NCBI GenBank assembly: GCA_025936205.1
Contig: JAICTU010000341.1
Span: 1 to 9,971, forward strand
Length of the DNA: 9,971 nt
DNA from: Polyangiaceae bacterium
Lineage (GTDB): Bacteria; Myxococcota; Polyangia; Polyangiales; Polyangiaceae
Reading direction: 5' to 3'
Every line of letters begins with the position of its first letter. The stretch's first letter is position 1. A program made the position numbers and the translations under genes. Below the pieces are notes generated by a model, which did no database searches, was not told the DNA's origin, and was given only the letters and a program-made list of their open reading frames with translations. Positions 1 to 9,971 of the stretch are shown one piece after another.

Positions 1-1107
1 CGTAGCGTTGCAATCGTTCGCCGTTCGTTGCCGATCCTGGTCGCGCCCGCGCTGCTGCTGGCGTGTGGCGAGGAGGATGCCGCGCAGTTCGACGCCGGCT
101 CTTCCGATCTGCAGGGCGCGGGCGACCTCGCGCTCGGCGCGGGGTCGACATCACAGGCAGCGACCGGGCCCACCGGCGCCGCGGGGCCGCAGGGCGACCC
201 AGGCGCTGATGGAGCTCCAGGGCCGCAGGGCCCCGCTGGCCCGCCGGGGCTGCCCGGCGCGCCGGGGCCTGCCGGCGTCGCCGACGAGACGAGCGCCGTG
301 CCGTATGCCGGTCAGTTCGTGCTCGACATCGAGGGCTTCAGTGGCACGGTCGCGCTCGCCAGCTTTGCTGGCTGCTTCGATCAGTTCGTGGGCGTGCTGT
401 ACTCGGACTGCGTGTTCGAGGTAGAGGGCCTGCCGGCGCCGGTGCTCAACTGGTTCCAGGAGTCGATCGCCGGTGGGGAAGCCCGCCGCGATCTCACCGT
501 GCGCGAGCTCGATACGAGCGGAGGTCCGTCCCAGCACGTGATCACCGAGCTCGCGATCGGCAACGCCTGGCTCACGGATTTTCGCATTTCTGACTTCGAC
601 GCCGCGGCCACGGGCACCGGCAAGCTGAGCTTCGTCGTGGTGCCGGACTCGCTCGCCAACCGCACGCCGACCGATCTGAGCAGCACGCCGAGCGCGCCCG
701 CGTTCAGTCCTGCAGACTTCGTGCTGCAAATTCCCGACGTGGATCCCACGGGCCTGGTTGCGCTGTCCGGCTTTCACCTGCGCCGCGACCGCCTGTCCGC
801 GACGGGACCCGATCCAGACCGCTCGTACTTCCGGCCCGATGCGCAGCTGTTCGATGATCTCACGCTGGTGGCGGCGCAGAGCCGATCGGCCGATACACTC
901 GATGACCTGACGAGCTGGGTCGACGGCCTGGGTCACTCGGCAAACGATCGCCGTGACGGCGTGCTCACGGTGCGCGACGGCAGCCAGACTGCCCTCGCAC
1001 ACATCCACCTGCCGCAGCTCACGCCCTTCACGGGGCTCAGCCTGGTGGGGGAACGGCGCTCGATCACCCTGGTGGTCGACAGCTTCGATCTCGTCGCGCT
1101 GCCTTGA
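1..1107 (+). CDS. Collagen-like lipoprotein with two tail-tube (gp19)-like domains, 5' partial
   Basis: The reading frame is open to the left edge. The first possible start inside the window, TTG at 28, would give a signal peptide with no positive charge, whereas the codons before it encode Arg-Arg-Ser, so the true start probably lies outside the window. Numbering from that TTG, a hydrophobic segment ends in lipobox LLAC (Cys13), so the product should be exported and lipid-anchored. A small-residue linker (14-46) leads to 13 perfect Gly-X-Y triplets (47-85), a collagen-like stalk. Two globular segments follow, about 96-209 and 230-357. Each begins F-V-L-(D/Q)-I and contains an L..W...., then (R/D)RRD and L-T-V pattern, with a hydrophobic strand near its end. 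The order resembles phage tail-tube gp19/Hcp-like proteins (PF06841), recognised by eye only. No other tail genes are nearby, so a surface adhesin or structural role is possible. The lipoprotein and collagen calls are firm; the gp19 call is moderate. Confidence 0.8.
166..282 (+). repeat. Collagen-like Gly-X-Y tract (13 triplets)
   Basis: Thirteen consecutive in-frame Gly-X-Y codon triplets encode units such as GPT, GPQ, GPP and GAP. Pro is common at X and Ala, Pro, Gln or Asp at Y. The tract sits directly between the lipoprotein linker and the first globular domain, as expected for a trimerising rod. Bacterial collagen-like tracts can vary in length between strains. Confidence 0.9.
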
Positions 1108-2382: not shown

Positions 2383-3297
2383 ATGGATCGCGCCCGAGAG
2401 GTCGATGTTTTCGAGTACCGCGACTACCGCGCGTTCTTGCGGGATGTATACAGCTCGCGCAAGCAGACAGAATACGGTTTCTCCTATCGGGCGTTCGCGA
2501 AGCGCGCCGGGCTGAGCGCGCCGAATTACCTGAAGCTGGTCGCGGAAGGGCAGCGCAACCTGACGGGGGAGATGGCGGGGCGTTTCGCGGCCGCGCTGGG
2601 GCTGGAGGGCGAGGCCGCGGGTTACTTCTGTGATCTGGTCGCGTTCAATCAGGCGAGCAGCGCCACCGAGCGCGAGCGTTGCTACCAGCGGCTGCAGAGC
2701 TATCGCCGCTATCGCAACACCTTCCGGCTGGACGCAGCGCACGCGGCGTATCACTCGGAGTGGTACATCCCGGCCATCCGCGAGCTGGCGGCCTGCCAGG
2801 GTTTTCGCGAGGACCCGAAGTGGATCGCGCGCCGCTTGCGTCCCAGCATCACGGCGCGCCAGGCGCAGCAGGCGCTGGCGGTGCTGGAGCAGCTCGGGCT
2901 ATTGGTGCGCGACGCTGCGGGGCAATTGGTGCAGCACCATCCCGTGCTGTCGACGGGCGATGATCAGCCGCTCGGGCATCACATCGCCACGTTTCATCGC
3001 ACGATGCTGCAGCGCGCGGGCGAGGCGCTCGATGGCGTGCCGCGCGAGGAGCGCGAGATCGCCGCGCTCACCCTGGGTCTGGATGCGGCGCGCTTTCGCG
3101 AGTTCAAGCAGCGGCTGTACGAGCTGCGGCAGGAGCTGCTGCAGCTGGCCAGCTCCAGCAGCGAACGAGCCGATCGGGTGGTGCAGATCAATTTCCAGAT
3201 GTTCCCGCTCAGCCACTTCGACGGCGGCGAGAGTGGGGATGCAGTCGAGGCGGTCGCCGGCGGCCACGCAGAGCCGGAAGGAAACGAAGTGTCATGA
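2383..3297 (+). CDS. TIGR02147 family HTH protein (putative regulator)
   Basis: This is a 304-residue cytoplasmic protein. The N-terminus DVFEYRDYRAFLRDVY (8-23), followed by FSYRAFAKRAGLSAPNYLKL (33-52) and a GQRNLT segment (56-61), is the typical TIGR02147 (DUF4423-like) signature. This includes a helix-turn-helix-like unit around 34-60. A central helical region contains the paired Tyr-Arg residues (107-111) and HSEWYIPAIREL (124-135). A second winged-helix-like region follows at about 145-190 (WIARRLRPSITARQAQQAL then a leucine-rich helix), and the end is QINFQMFPLSHF (268-279). The family is known from Fibrobacter, Bdellovibrio relatives and myxobacteria, often as many paralogues; DNA binding is presumed from fold. 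Its stop overlaps the next gene's start (ATGA, 3294-3297), so the lipoprotein downstream is probably co-translated and may be its functional partner. Residues after about 280 are an acidic, low-complexity tail. Confidence 0.88.
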   Translation: MDRAREVDVFEYRDYRAFLRDVYSSRKQTEYGFSYRAFAKRAGLSAPNYLKLVAEGQRNLTGEMAGRFAAALGLEGEAAGYFCDLVAFNQASSATERERCYQRLQSYRRYRNTFRLDAAHAAYHSEWYIPAIRELAACQGFREDPKWIARRLRPSITARQAQQALAVLEQLGLLVRDAAGQLVQHHPVLSTGDDQPLGHHIATFHRTMLQRAGEALDGVPREEREIAALTLGLDAARFREFKQRLYELRQELLQLASSSSERADRVVQINFQMFPLSHFDGGESGDAVEAVAGGHAEPEGNEVS

Positions 3298-4652
3298 AAA
3301 AGCTAGTTGCGTCCTTGCTCTTGTGCGCGTGCGCCAGCTCCGGAAATCCGGATGGGGCCACGCAGAACCCCGATGACCCGGCAGGCGGCACCGACACCGG
3401 CAATCCCAATGACGGTCGAGGCACCACCGTCGAGAACGGTATCGGCAACTGCGACGAGGCCGCACGCGCGCTCGATCCCGACGAGGTCACGCCGCTCGGG
3501 GTGAGCGCCGCCGAGTTGCTCAGCTGGGTGGGCGGCACACACACGGAGACACTGGCCTGGCAAGACAGCGCCGCGAGCTTCGGACCGGAGCATGGTCGCT
3601 CGGAGATCACGATCGAGGTCGAGCCGCTCGGCGCGCGCTTCATCGACCGCAGCCCCAAGCAGTCTTCGGGCGACGGTGCAGGCCTGGCCATCGCCGAGAT
3701 CGCCCTGATCGGTGGCGACCTCTGCCCCGACTCGATCGCGCTCGACGTGCGCCTGCACCTCTCGACCGCTGGCGGCGCGCTGAACGAGACCGTGGAGACG
3801 ACGCTGCAAGCCAGCGCGCGCGACTACGCCACGGGGCACCTGACGTTGCCCACCGATATGCTGACGGGCAGCTTCGAAGCGCAGGTGTCCGTGCCGAATG
3901 GCTTCGTGCAGCGGGGCTCGCCCAAACTGCAGGTGGATCTGGGCCTCTCGCAGTACGGCGATCGCGGCCAGGTGCAGCTGCAGAGCGAGTTCGCGAGCAG
4001 CGACGGGCAGGCGGTGGGGCAGGGCGGGGCCGGTATCATTGCCCGCTTTCCGGCGGACGACATCTGCCAGAGCGGCATCGGTGTGGCGGCGGATCAAAGC
4101 GTGCGCGGCATCTCGGTCGCGGCCGTGCTCGAGCAGCTGAACGGCTCGAGCCCCGCGCGCCTGGCCGGCAGCTCGGCGACGCTCGATCTCGCGTTCGAGA
4201 GCAGCGCCGCGCGGGTGTGCGTGGCGCTCGATGGATCCGAGAGCGGTCCGATGCGGATCGAGGTGCCCGGCAAGGTGCGCCTGCTCTCCAGCGACCAGCA
4301 CATCGATGGCAGCATCGACGTGACGATCAGCGGGGACGCCAGCGGCGGCGTGCTGCAGCGCAGCAGCGCCAACGCCAACGACTTCCTGCTCGACACGGCG
4401 CAGGCCCAGGCGAAGGTGGCGACGTATGCGATCGCGCAGCAGCTCGACTTCTCGAGCTACGATGGTGGCTCCTTCGAATTCCTCGCCGAAGTGAACGGCG
4501 GCGCTGCCAGCGGCGCGCTGCGCGCGTACGGGGTGCTGCTGCCGGATTGCCAGAAGAATCCTCCGGCTCCGGTGCCCGGCGCGCAAAGCTCGCCCGGCTG
4601 CGCCGGCGCCGACCGCATCCCGCTGTGGAGCGCCACCTGGTCGAGGCCTTGA
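3294..4652 (+). CDS. Lipoprotein of unknown function, partner of the TIGR02147 gene
   Basis: This 452-residue product begins MKK, then a short hydrophobic stretch and a Cys-Ala-Cys. The lipidated residue is probably Cys13 (Leu at -3, Ala at -1), with Cys11 as an alternative. Residues 14-52 are a flexible Gly/Asn/Asp/Thr/Pro linker containing GNP twice. The rest (53-450) appears to be β-rich, with alternating hydrophobic strands and six further Cys (53, 144, 258, 309, 419, 436) that could form three disulfides in the periplasm or at the surface. A segment around 66-90 (TPLGVSAAELLSWVGGTHTE) looks like a recurrent opening of uncharacterised myxobacterial lipoproteins. No enzyme motif is visible. 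The ATG overlaps the upstream stop by 4 bp, and AAGGA lies 11 nt before it inside the upstream gene. Export is confident; function is unknown. Confidence 0.85.
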   Translation: MKKLVASLLLCACASSGNPDGATQNPDDPAGGTDTGNPNDGRGTTVENGIGNCDEAARALDPDEVTPLGVSAAELLSWVGGTHTETLAWQDSAASFGPEHGRSEITIEVEPLGARFIDRSPKQSSGDGAGLAIAEIALIGGDLCPDSIALDVRLHLSTAGGALNETVETTLQASARDYATGHLTLPTDMLTGSFEAQVSVPNGFVQRGSPKLQVDLGLSQYGDRGQVQLQSEFASSDGQAVGQGGAGIIARFPADDICQSGIGVAADQSVRGISVAAVLEQLNGSSPARLAGSSATLDLAFESSAARVCVALDGSESGPMRIEVPGKVRLLSSDQHIDGSIDVTISGDASGGVLQRSSANANDFLLDTAQAQAKVATYAIAQQLDFSSYDGGSFEFLAEVNGGAASGALRAYGVLLPDCQKNPPAPVPGAQSSPGCAGADRIPLWSATWSRP

Positions 4653-5170: not shown

Positions 5171-5707
5171 TCAGTGGCTGCCGCAGGGAACCCAGGTGCT
5201 GGAGTCGGGGTTCGAAGAACAGCCCAGGGGGAAGTAGGTATCCATGGCGCCGCAGTGACCCGATGCGGTGCAACAGCCGGGCATGGTCGGGCCAGGTGGG
5301 ATCGTGACGTCCAGACAGGCGGTATCGACCACGCCCGGCTGGTTCAGCTGGGCACAGCCGGGAGAGCCAAACGCGCTCAGGTCGACGCCGCACTTGCCGG
5401 CCTCGACCGCGTGGTTACCGGTCACGTCGTCCGCCGTCGTGCAACAGGCCACGGAGTTCGGGGGCACCGTGCAGGCGCTCGCCACGCAGGCCCCGCCAGT
5501 GTCGCCGGAGTTCAGGTGGTCGGCGTTGTCGAGGTTGTCAGCGGTCTGCGTGTTGGTGTCGGTGTTGGTCTGCGTGTTGGTGTCAGTTTGCGTCGCCGGA
5601 GGCGTGGGCGTGGGCGCGACAATGTCATTGTCTGCCCCGCACGCCATCAGCGGCAGGTAGAGTGCGAATGAAAGTCCCAAAAGACGGCCCAGCTGATGAC
5701 GGCTCAC
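5171..5707 (-). CDS. Cys-rich lipoprotein with Thr/Asn repeat linker
   Basis: This 178-residue protein starts at GTG 5707, supported by GAGGA six nt upstream. The signal peptide ends in lipobox LMAC, so Cys23 should be lipidated. Residues about 30-56 are a low-complexity Thr/Pro/Asn/Gln linker with repeated TDTNTQTN-like units, probably a flexible tether. The remainder holds 12 cysteines, including two Cys-Cys pairs arranged as ACC...GKCG and GCC...GHCG. This looks like two related small modules, each with a CC-x(n)-CG core, consistent with several disulfides in an exported domain. Similar Cys-rich modules are common in myxobacterial lipoproteins of unknown function. The gene is divergent from the winged-helix gene and has a hairpin just after its stop. 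Export is confident; function is unknown. Confidence 0.82.
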   Translation of the reverse strand: MSRHQLGRLLGLSFALYLPLMACGADNDIVAPTPTPPATQTDTNTQTNTDTNTQTADNLDNADHLNSGDTGGACVASACTVPPNSVACCTTADDVTGNHAVEAGKCGVDLSAFGSPGCAQLNQPGVVDTACLDVTIPPGPTMPGCCTASGHCGAMDTYFPLGCSSNPDSSTWVPCGSH

Positions 5708-5896: not shown

Positions 5897-6922
5897 GTGA
5901 ACACCCCCCTGCTGATCGATTCCATCGTACGTCAGGTCACCGTGCTGCTCGCGCAGCTCGCCACGGCGGGCGGACTGCGGGCGCCGATGGCCGATCTGGC
6001 GGACCAGGTGTTCTTGCATCTCGCCAAGGAGCTCGAGGCGCAAGGCGTGAGCCGCAAGGTGAGCGCAGACATGTTCGGCATGGCGCTGCGCGCTTACGTC
6101 CGCAAGGTGGGCCGCCTGCGCGAGGGGCAGAGCTCGCCGGGGGTGACGCTCTGGCAAGCGGTGCTGGAGTTCATCCGCGAGCAGGGACTGGTGCTGCGCT
6201 CGAGGGTGGCGGCGCGCTTCTCGCGCGATCCGGAGCCGATACTGCTCTCGGTGCTGCACGACCTGTGCGAGAGCGGGCTGGTCTTCGCGATCGGCAGCGG
6301 CAGCCGCGTGGCGTATCGAGCGGCTACCGAGGAGGAGCTGAGCGAGCTCGCGCGCTCCGGCCAAGACGACGGGCTGGAGGAGTTGCTCTGGGCCTTCGTG
6401 GCGCACGAAGGCCCGGTCTCCGACGCAGCGCTCGCCCGGCGCATCTCCCGCGCACCCGCCGATCTGGAGCCGATCCTGGCTGCCTTGCTCGCGGATGGGC
6501 GCGTGGAGCGGCGGCCTGATGGGCGGCTCTCGGCGCGCGATCTGTTGATCCCGCTCTCGGCTCCTTCTGGCTGGGAGGCGGCGGTGTTCGATCACTTTCA
6601 GGCGGTGGTGCAGACGATCGTGCAACGCATCGATCGGCGAGCGGCGGATGCCGCCGCGCCGGTCGGCGGCAGCACCTACCGCTTCGACATCTGGCCCGGC
6701 CATCCGCTGGAGCGTCGGGTACAGGAACAGCTCGGGGAAATCCGCGAGCGCCTGAGCGCGCTGCGCAGCGAAGTCTCGGAGCACAATCAGCGCGCGCCGC
6801 TGCCGCCGGAGTACCGGCAAGTGGCGCTGTACGTGGGACAGTGCCAGCTCGATCGCGAATCCGACGCGGCTTCGAGCGAGGACTCTCGACGGCCGCCGCC
6901 GGCGGCAGAGGAGCAAGCATGA
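5897..6922 (+). CDS. Multi-winged-helix putative regulatory protein
   Basis: This 341-residue protein has no signal peptide or membrane segment, so it is cytoplasmic. Residues 1-75 form a helical unit (IVRQVTVLLAQLATAGG, then a DQVFLHLAKEL helix, then SADMFGMALRAYVRKVGRL) reminiscent of DUF6502-type or sigma-like HTH N-termini. Two winged-helix-like repeats follow, about 84-142 (LWQAVLEFI ... LLSVLHDLCESGLVF) and 158-218 (LEELLWAFV ... LAALLADGRVERR). The C-terminal region contains STYRFDIWPGHPLE (259-272), a motif I associate with an uncharacterised myxobacterial family, and then a coiled-coil-like helix (273-298). The GTG start at 5897 is chosen because NTPLLIDSIVRQ looks like the family N-terminus; its ribosome binding site is weak. 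The stop overlaps the heme lipoprotein start by 4 bp. A DNA-binding regulator is likely; its target is unknown. Confidence 0.8.
   Translation: MNTPLLIDSIVRQVTVLLAQLATAGGLRAPMADLADQVFLHLAKELEAQGVSRKVSADMFGMALRAYVRKVGRLREGQSSPGVTLWQAVLEFIREQGLVLRSRVAARFSRDPEPILLSVLHDLCESGLVFAIGSGSRVAYRAATEEELSELARSGQDDGLEELLWAFVAHEGPVSDAALARRISRAPADLEPILAALLADGRVERRPDGRLSARDLLIPLSAPSGWEAAVFDHFQAVVQTIVQRIDRRAADAAAPVGGSTYRFDIWPGHPLERRVQEQLGEIRERLSALRSEVSEHNQRAPLPPEYRQVALYVGQCQLDRESDAASSEDSRRPPPAAEEQA
6908..6913 (+). promoter_or_regulatory. Ribosome binding site for the heme lipoprotein
   Basis: GAGGAG lies 5 nt before the ATG at 6919, inside the 3' end of the winged-helix gene. It supports this start over upstream in-frame candidates, which would bury the signal peptide behind an Arg-rich extension. 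Confidence 0.7.
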
Positions 6923-7914
6923 AGCGATTCGGGGCGATTCTCCTGGGCAGCGTGCTGGCGGCGAGCTGCAATGGCCAAACGGACGATGGCGCGGGCATCG
7001 GCGGGGAGACCCACTTTCTGGTCACCTGCGGTGAGGGCTGCGGCCCCGGTCTGAGCTGCATCGACGGTGTCTGCACGCGGCATTGCGAGCCCGGTTTCTC
7101 CAGCTGCACGGAGCTGGCGGCATCGGCGGCGTGCGTGGGCCCCGCGGATGAGGGCGCCGAGGCGAGCGCGTTCAGCGGCACCTGCGACGTGCCGTGCGCC
7201 GGCGATGGCGATTGCTCCTCACTCGGCACAGGATATCTGTGCACGGCGGGAGCGTGCCGGGCGGAGCCGGAGGCGCGGGAAGCCGAGCTCGAGTCCGCGC
7301 TGCGCTCGAATCGCGCCCCGAAGGTGATGGCCGTGGACACGGACACCTGCGATGCAGGCCTGCGCTGGGTGGGCGGTAACGAGGGCAGCGCGGAGATGCA
7401 TCCCGGCAGCGACTGCGTGGGCTGTCATCGCGAGACCGGGGCCAGGCCCTTGATGTTCGGGGGCACGGTGTATGCCAAGCCGACGCAGAACATGTACAAA
7501 AGCAATGCGATGGATCCGCTCGAGGGCTGCTTTGGGCTCGAGGGAATCACAGTCCAGGTGACGGACGGCAACGGCAGAGAATACGTCACCGTGACCAATC
7601 GCGCCGGCAACTTCTACGTTGAAGGCCGGGAGAGCGATCTAGTGCCTCCGTACAGCGCCAAAATCACCTTCAGCACGCAAGAGCAAGAGCAGCTGCCGTT
7701 CTTCAACGGACCGATCGAGCGCACCGTGGATCACGAGGTCCAGATGTACACCACGCCGTTCTACGGCGGCTGCGCGCGCTGCCATACCGCTACCGCGGTT
7801 TCCACCGGTCGCAGGGACATCCCGGGATTTGATGAGTCGGACGAGGATCTCGCCAAGTTGGTGACTCCCGCCGGATCCGTCATCTTCCCGCCGGGCCTGT
7901 ACCCCGACCCGTGA
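6919..7914 (+). CDS. Putative diheme c-type lipoprotein with Cys-rich N-terminal region
   Basis: This 331-residue lipoprotein has a signal peptide (MKRFGAILLGSVLAAS) with Cys17 as the predicted lipidated residue. Residues 37-113 are Cys-rich, with repeats such as CGPGLSCIDGVC and CAGDGDCSSLG....C..GACR, typical of small disulfide modules in exported myxobacterial proteins. Two CXXCH motifs follow: CVGCH (166-170) and CARCH (285-289), which would covalently bind two c-type hemes in the periplasm. Between them is a β-sandwich-like region (about 180-280) with TVQVTDGNGREYVTVTNRAGNFYV, resembling a carboxypeptidase-regulatory or Ig-like fold. Axial Met or His ligands cannot be assigned by eye. 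The gene is coupled by ATGA to the upstream winged-helix gene and ends 10 bp from the convergent kinase stop. A role in electron transfer or redox sensing is plausible but inferred; the CXXCH motifs are seen directly. Confidence 0.83.
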   Translation: MKRFGAILLGSVLAASCNGQTDDGAGIGGETHFLVTCGEGCGPGLSCIDGVCTRHCEPGFSSCTELAASAACVGPADEGAEASAFSGTCDVPCAGDGDCSSLGTGYLCTAGACRAEPEAREAELESALRSNRAPKVMAVDTDTCDAGLRWVGGNEGSAEMHPGSDCVGCHRETGARPLMFGGTVYAKPTQNMYKSNAMDPLEGCFGLEGITVQVTDGNGREYVTVTNRAGNFYVEGRESDLVPPYSAKITFSTQEQEQLPFFNGPIERTVDHEVQMYTTPFYGGCARCHTATAVSTGRRDIPGFDESDEDLAKLVTPAGSVIFPPGLYPDP

Positions 7915-7924
7915 CCGTGCGCCT

Positions 7925-9910
<1,986 letters not shown>

Positions 9911-9971
9911 GGGGGACCACCATATATCACGCGCGCCGCTGCCATGCGTGCGCAACGGCAAGCGGTGGATC

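Follow-up and report, generated by a model that had tools for sequence, protein, structure and literature searches.

The window analyzed here is a 9,971-nucleotide stretch from a Polyangiaceae bacterium (positions 1 to 9,971 of contig JAICTU010000341.1, assembly GCA_025936205.1). It opens with a gene on the forward strand (1..1107) whose product has a lipobox, a collagen-like run, and a head of about 270 residues that is predicted to contain two domains with the fold of tail-tube proteins. It appears that a doubled tail-tube unit has been reused, in a soil-type bacterium, as the three-part head of a collagen stalk. The reading frame stays open up to the first base of the window, and the 5' end of the gene is cut by two codons: P0001, the protein of 370 amino acids that was flagged by our search as encoded by the window, starts two codons before it. 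The GC content at the three codon positions of the gene is 0.73, 0.54, and 0.82 (window GC 0.682), as one commonly sees in coding frames of GC-rich genomes. The features of the gene are:

1..1107, + strand: collagen stalk protein with a tandem tail-tube-like head (the whole gene minus two 5' codons)
52..66, + strand: lipobox LLLAC; Cys22 (nucleotides 64-66) is predicted, by pattern match alone, to be lipidated after signal peptide cleavage
67..165, + strand: spacer of 33 residues from the lipidated Cys to the collagen; many relatives have a DUF7151 domain here
166..282, + strand: collagen-like run of 13 Gly-X-Y triplets, residues 56-94 (pattern and Pfam Collagen)
304..666, + strand: domain 1, predicted tail-tube (gp19/Hcp-like) fold, short at the ring-stacking loop of tail tubes (profiles and model)
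373..411, + strand: Cys125 to Cys137, the only two cysteines of the head, in 40/40 members measured; possible disulfide
436..468, + strand: domain 1 helix with the invariant Trp151 (alignment and model)
694..1104, + strand: domain 2, predicted tail-tube (gp19/eCIS-tube-like, for extracellular contractile injection system) fold, with a loop region of injection-tube length (profiles and model)
889..924, + strand: domain 2 helix with the conserved Trp306 (alignment and model)

The original prediction described a lipid-anchored collagen stalk with two tail-tube-like domains. The stalk is as described. The lipobox has its Cys at residue 22 of the window, and this motif predicts an export signal and a membrane anchor. 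The 13 triplets match Pfam Collagen (E = 3.3e-7), and a chance origin was ruled out, as 5000 shuffles of the protein never gave more than 6 triplets (reached once).

Tail-tube domains are known from phage tails, type VI secretion systems, and injection systems. For the window protein itself, the matches to such families are weak: PF06841 matches domain 1 only (E = 0.001), TIGR02241 scores 15.4 bits against a cut-off of 62.4 (E = 0.012), and phrog_4542 (tail tube protein) matches domain 1 with E = 0.049. Seven of nine relatives exceed the PF06841 cut-off (P0025, P0028, P0029, P0034, P0043, P0047, and P0048, with P0043 highest at 52.3 bits), and P0036 and P0041 score below it. The best stretch lies in domain 1 for five of the nine and in domain 2 for the other four, and P0025, P0034, P0043, and P0047 have two stretches each. 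Profiles of the separate domains point the same way. Against PDB sequences, all six matches of the domain 1 profile at E ≤ 1 are tube proteins of contractile injection systems (8bl4 at E = 0.003 and 7aeb at E = 0.023 are on top). For domain 2, injection-system tube proteins are the first four of 13 matches at E ≤ 5 (7adz at E = 0.0021 and 7b5h at E = 0.0035 lead), and unrelated proteins begin at E = 0.42. The two domain profiles also align with each other over 80 columns (hhalign probability 89.6, E = 1.9e-6 for this single comparison).

The predicted structures agree. An AlphaFold2 model of residues 94-368 as a single chain has a mean predicted local distance difference test (pLDDT) of 93.2 and a predicted template modelling score (pTM) of 0.90. 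In Foldseek searches, this model matched 18 PDB chains at E ≤ 1e-3 and the model of a second member matched 21, and all of these are phage-tail or contractile-injection entries. Both domains are thus predicted to have the tail-tube fold, a beta-sandwich plus a helix, as the original prediction had held for its two globular segments; it would have fallen had neither profiles nor structures matched gp19/Hcp, and the relatives' profiles and the predicted fold both do. The agreement of relatives, domain profiles, and two models rules out a false-positive match to gp19.

The pair of domains in the two models superposes on the eight top two-domain chains with a root-mean-square deviation (rmsd) of 3.4-3.9 Å over 235-252 residues. 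The second-best match is SH-Ab15497; the trimer comparison is drawn with T5 pb6 and the P74-26 tail tube protein, and T4 gp27 and VgrG are not among the 50 structural matches listed for the two models. The models indicate a tandem duplication whose domains are placed relative to each other as in the T5 pb6 and P74-26 tail tubes. We found no similarity in sequence to these tail tubes in PDB searches with the head or with the domain profiles. The T5 paper states that T5-like proteins had no database homologues by PSI-BLAST and HHPRED.

Collagen rods are trimers. Two tail-tube domains per chain in a collagen trimer would give six domains, or one complete ring. We propose that the gene encodes a trimeric lipoprotein, in which a collagen rod bears a single pseudo-hexameric ring of tail-tube fold as its nucleating or binding head, and we put the probability of this at roughly 55%. 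The fold and the architecture are well supported, and the trimer and the closure of the ring are proposed by analogy. Among monomer, trimer, and hexamer, the trimer is the assembly that we would expect, in agreement with the collagen triple helix. The original prediction's reuse of the gp19/Hcp fold on a lipid-anchored collagen protein is borne out by the profiles, the structure prediction, and the conserved family, and its ring-forming part gains indirect support from a two-domain arrangement like that reported for trimeric, pseudo-hexameric tail tubes.

Another account is that this is an ordinary collagen-like adhesin whose head domains are arranged as beads, or as a compact trimer without an open ring, with the fold serving only as a scaffold. 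A match in fold is no proof of ring closure, and the Foldseek superposition of the pair is loose, but the low rmsd to the eight best two-domain chains, given above, speaks against this account. We consider this account unlikely, although it deserves serious weight.

We combined three homologue searches, each of which scored only about 8000 candidates. They returned 29 proteins for the head by itself, 46 for a profile built from eight members, and 26 for one built from six distant members; together these are 68 identifiers, including the window's own protein and fragments. Because the query was the head only, the association with collagen was not built into the searches. Homologues with the same order of parts were found: 50 proteins have both the Cys motif and 50 or more residues ahead of the head, and 46 of these carry at least 8 triplets there. 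(Not counted in the 50 are 18 proteins: ten with 0-13 residues before the head and eight without the exact motif.) The four below 8 triplets are P0011 (6), P0013 (6), P0020 (3), and P0035 (3). By eye, the N-terminal part of P0035 appears to be frameshifted. P0011, P0013, and P0020 are members of a DUF7151 clade that keep the head and may have lost the stalk.

The lipobox is not constant. The pattern is present at Cys 23-24 in P0002, P0003, P0005, P0007, P0009, and P0021, and a loose form of it is found in 3 of 22 proteins among rows P0025-P0049 (in another 3 of these 22 the N-terminal part is absent). The N-terminal modules differ as well: 15 of 25 relatives scanned have DUF7151, and four of nine relatives scanned have PEGA (P0029, P0041, P0043, and P0048). 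In P0047, residues 38-69 are a small predicted beta domain with two cysteines before the collagen run (pLDDT 80-86 for residues 41-70); similar ACV...C segments are present in P0025, P0027, and P0033 and might be an N-terminal capping module. Three members have a named organism: P0005, which is complete, is from a Polyangiaceae bacterium, and two partial proteins are from a deltaproteobacterium (P0046) and an acidobacterium (P0064, truncated immediately ahead of its head).

Domain 1 differs from domain 2 in a consistent way. From the Phe of the first strand to the Trp of the helix there are 44-46 residues in domain 1 versus 61-70 in domain 2 (40 members; 5 of the 45 aligned rows were skipped as cut or frameshifted), and 64 residues in 7adz_1a (a hand count on the profile alignment). 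Domain 1 is about 20 residues short in 40/40, and domain 2 keeps its length. In our reading, the stretch absent from domain 1 corresponds to the long ring-stacking loop of tail tubes. Cys125 and Cys137 lie where domain 1 is short, and both are present in 40/40. Exactly two head cysteines are found in 43 of 45 aligned members; the others, P0038 (3) and P0049 (5), look frameshifted. A disulfide between Cys125 and Cys137 is plausible if the protein is exported. Since domain 1 seems to lack the stacking loop and to have the Cys pair there instead, we expect the ring to remain unstacked.

Stacking of the rings into a surface tube or fibre, a pilus-like conduit on many collagen roots, would suit domain 2, whose loop region is still of injection-tube length. 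But every subunit is fused to a stalk, domain 1 is short in all members measured, and according to the T5 paper the long loops of the tail tube protein are needed for tube formation. We therefore regard stacked rings as very improbable.

The protein could also be read as a tube, cap, or tip component, specialised in some way, that belongs to a phage tail, a tailocin, or a contractile injection system. Its nearest solved folds are indeed tail and injection-tube proteins, but it has a lipobox motif and a conserved pair of head cysteines, and neither its neighbors nor the wider searches link it to a phage. The original prediction had remarked on the absence of sheath and baseplate genes, and this holds for the visible flank: with Pfam and PHROGs, we found no phage structural or injection-system family (sheath, baseplate, or tape measure) in the eight other proteins of the window, all of which lie on the downstream side of the gene. 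(The eight were chosen from 47 open frames; thresholds were E ≤ 1 for Pfam and, for PHROGs, E ≤ 10 for one protein and E ≤ 0.01 for seven.) A phage or plasmid gene was rejected, as tblastn against phages and plasmids gave nothing at E ≤ 1. In viral contigs, a family peptide pattern had 0 matches and an alignment search gave 19 stretches, none confirmed. In GTDB species contigs, an alignment search gave 10 stretches, none confirmed; the search pattern suits 20 of 45 members (the window included, by eye), so this absence concerns only part of the family. We think it highly improbable that this is part of a tail or injection system.

Our preferred reading, a collagen rod with a single ring at its end, suggests the following mechanism. 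The product would be an exported lipoprotein, most likely in the outer membrane, that trimerises. The triple helix of its three chains would make a short collagen-like rod, about 11 nm in length, as 13 triplets at about 0.86 nm each (the usual collagen geometry) give this length. At the end of the rod, the three two-domain heads would close into one pseudo-hexameric ring (3 x 2 = 6 domains). The head probably acts as a nucleus at the C-terminus that brings the three chains into register and locks their triple helix. Between the last triplet and the head's conserved Tyr the linker is short (median 8, range 1-18, in 46 members), which fits a head that determines the register. The head would present a binding face or rim to some ligand, and attachment to a surface or polymer would be its likeliest use; surface exposure and adhesion are guesses.

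The lipoprotein might instead face inward from the outer membrane, with its rod reaching through the periplasm towards the peptidoglycan. The lipobox and the 33-residue spacer leave the side of the membrane undecided, but the low count of the loose pattern in rows P0025-P0049 makes the lipid anchor no constant of the family, and bacterial collagen-like proteins are known mostly as surface-exposed. A periplasmic location seems to us rather improbable. It is also doubtful, and a long shot, that a free-standing open ring, carried above the outer membrane on the rod, docks axially with another tube or ring and does not adhere side-on; it would then be a docking collar or a decoy for an incoming phage tail, the injection tube of a neighbour, or a partner filament.

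Several observations weigh against the trimeric ring that we favor. The window protein's own PF06841 score is under the cut-off (19.3 versus 28.2 bits), and its head, as a single-sequence query against the PDB, found no tube protein (the best match, E = 0.16, was an antibody chain). The models are of single chains, and the trimer rests on analogy. In solution, the P74-26 tail tube protein occurs mostly as a monomer, so trimers need not follow from the fold by itself. Superposed by Foldseek, the pair has TM-scores for the query (TMq) of 0.48-0.58 and rmsd of 7-14 Å (ten two-domain rows), so the angle between domains may differ from that in tail tubes. The stalk can nearly vanish, as in P0011, P0013, and P0020, and the ten relatives with 0-13 residues before the head may be cut, mis-started, or truly collagen-free. 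P0004 sits on a contig of 26,865 bases. Finally, the adhesin function is a guess.

The likeness to T5 pb6 and the P74-26 tail tube protein is in the tandem two-domain arrangement. Unlike them, the window protein has a lipobox, a collagen stalk, a domain 1 that is short at the stacking loop, and a Cys pair, and there is no phage-structural gene in the visible flank. The tube proteins Afp1, Pvc1, and those of Algoriphagus and Anabaena (PF06841, TIGR02241) are single-domain subunits of contractile machines, whereas here two domains are fused on an exported stalk. Because domain 1 is short, a lipobox is present, and the visible flank has no tail gene, we do not class it as a tail-tube protein.

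On the collagen side, Scl1/Scl2 and Legionella Lcl share an anchor or export signal, a Gly-X-Y rod, and an adjoining non-collagenous domain, and Bacillus BclA and the C1q type are further comparators. The NCBIfam models for Scl/Lcl match only the collagen region of the window protein (residues 37-97). Other collagen heads are the Scl V region, the Lcl C-terminal domain, and the C1q/TNF jelly roll, whereas here the tail-tube fold, doubled, takes their place. In PHROGs, the tail fibre proteins of phages that are collagen-like have the collagen run in common with the window protein: of the 25 matches listed (of 45), 24 fall within residues 27-127, the other being phrog_4542, and none of these 25 spans both collagen and head. 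The window protein is a tail-tube relative by fold and profile that would act as an adhesin on a collagen stalk, with a head that is unusual.

The gene is convergent with a gene for a DUF2238 membrane protein (1819-1172, - strand), and a scan of 1000-1300 for promoters and terminators found nothing. At 2383-4652, a gene for a TIGR02147/DUF4423 regulator (NCBIfam, 248 bits) overlaps by ATGA the start of a gene for a putative lipoprotein of 452 residues with no Pfam or NCBIfam match; this looks like a unit of a regulator plus a secreted protein. A second two-gene unit with a similar layout, at 5897-7914, also has an ATGA overlap with a putative lipoprotein gene; its first protein has weak winged-helix matches (FeoC at its cut-off) and its putative lipoprotein has two CXXCH haem motifs (CVGCH and CARCH). 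Between these units, the protein at 4661-5071 matches phrog_23872 (unknown function, E = 0.0019) and gave the sole PADLOC match, a weak one to KwaB (E = 0.026), and 5171-5707 (- strand) encodes a Cys-rich putative lipoprotein (LMACGADND) with a short TDTNTQTNTDTNTQT stretch and no Pfam match. At 7925-9961 is a hybrid sensor kinase with PAS domains, HisKA (just under the cut-off), HATPase, and a C-terminal receiver; it matched nine PHROGs families, which are kinases or unknown.

If our proposal is correct, then a conserved bacterial family shows the tail-tube fold exapted as a trimeric head on a collagen rod. It might also be one more independent case in which a duplication made a trimeric ring out of a hexameric one; two such events, that of pb6 and that of the hub/spike proteins, are counted as independent in the T5 paper. 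Bacterial collagen would gain a type of head that we have not seen described: we found no report of a collagen rod with a doubled tail-tube head in literature titles and the openings of abstracts (most subscription papers are outside this coverage), and no paper on DUF7151 or on PF06841 together with PF01391. In protein design, the head might find use as a cap that nucleates triple helices of collagen, and P0011, P0013, and P0020 offer a test case for the head's need of a stalk. If experiments bear the proposal out, a part of a virus would have taken on a second life that was not expected.
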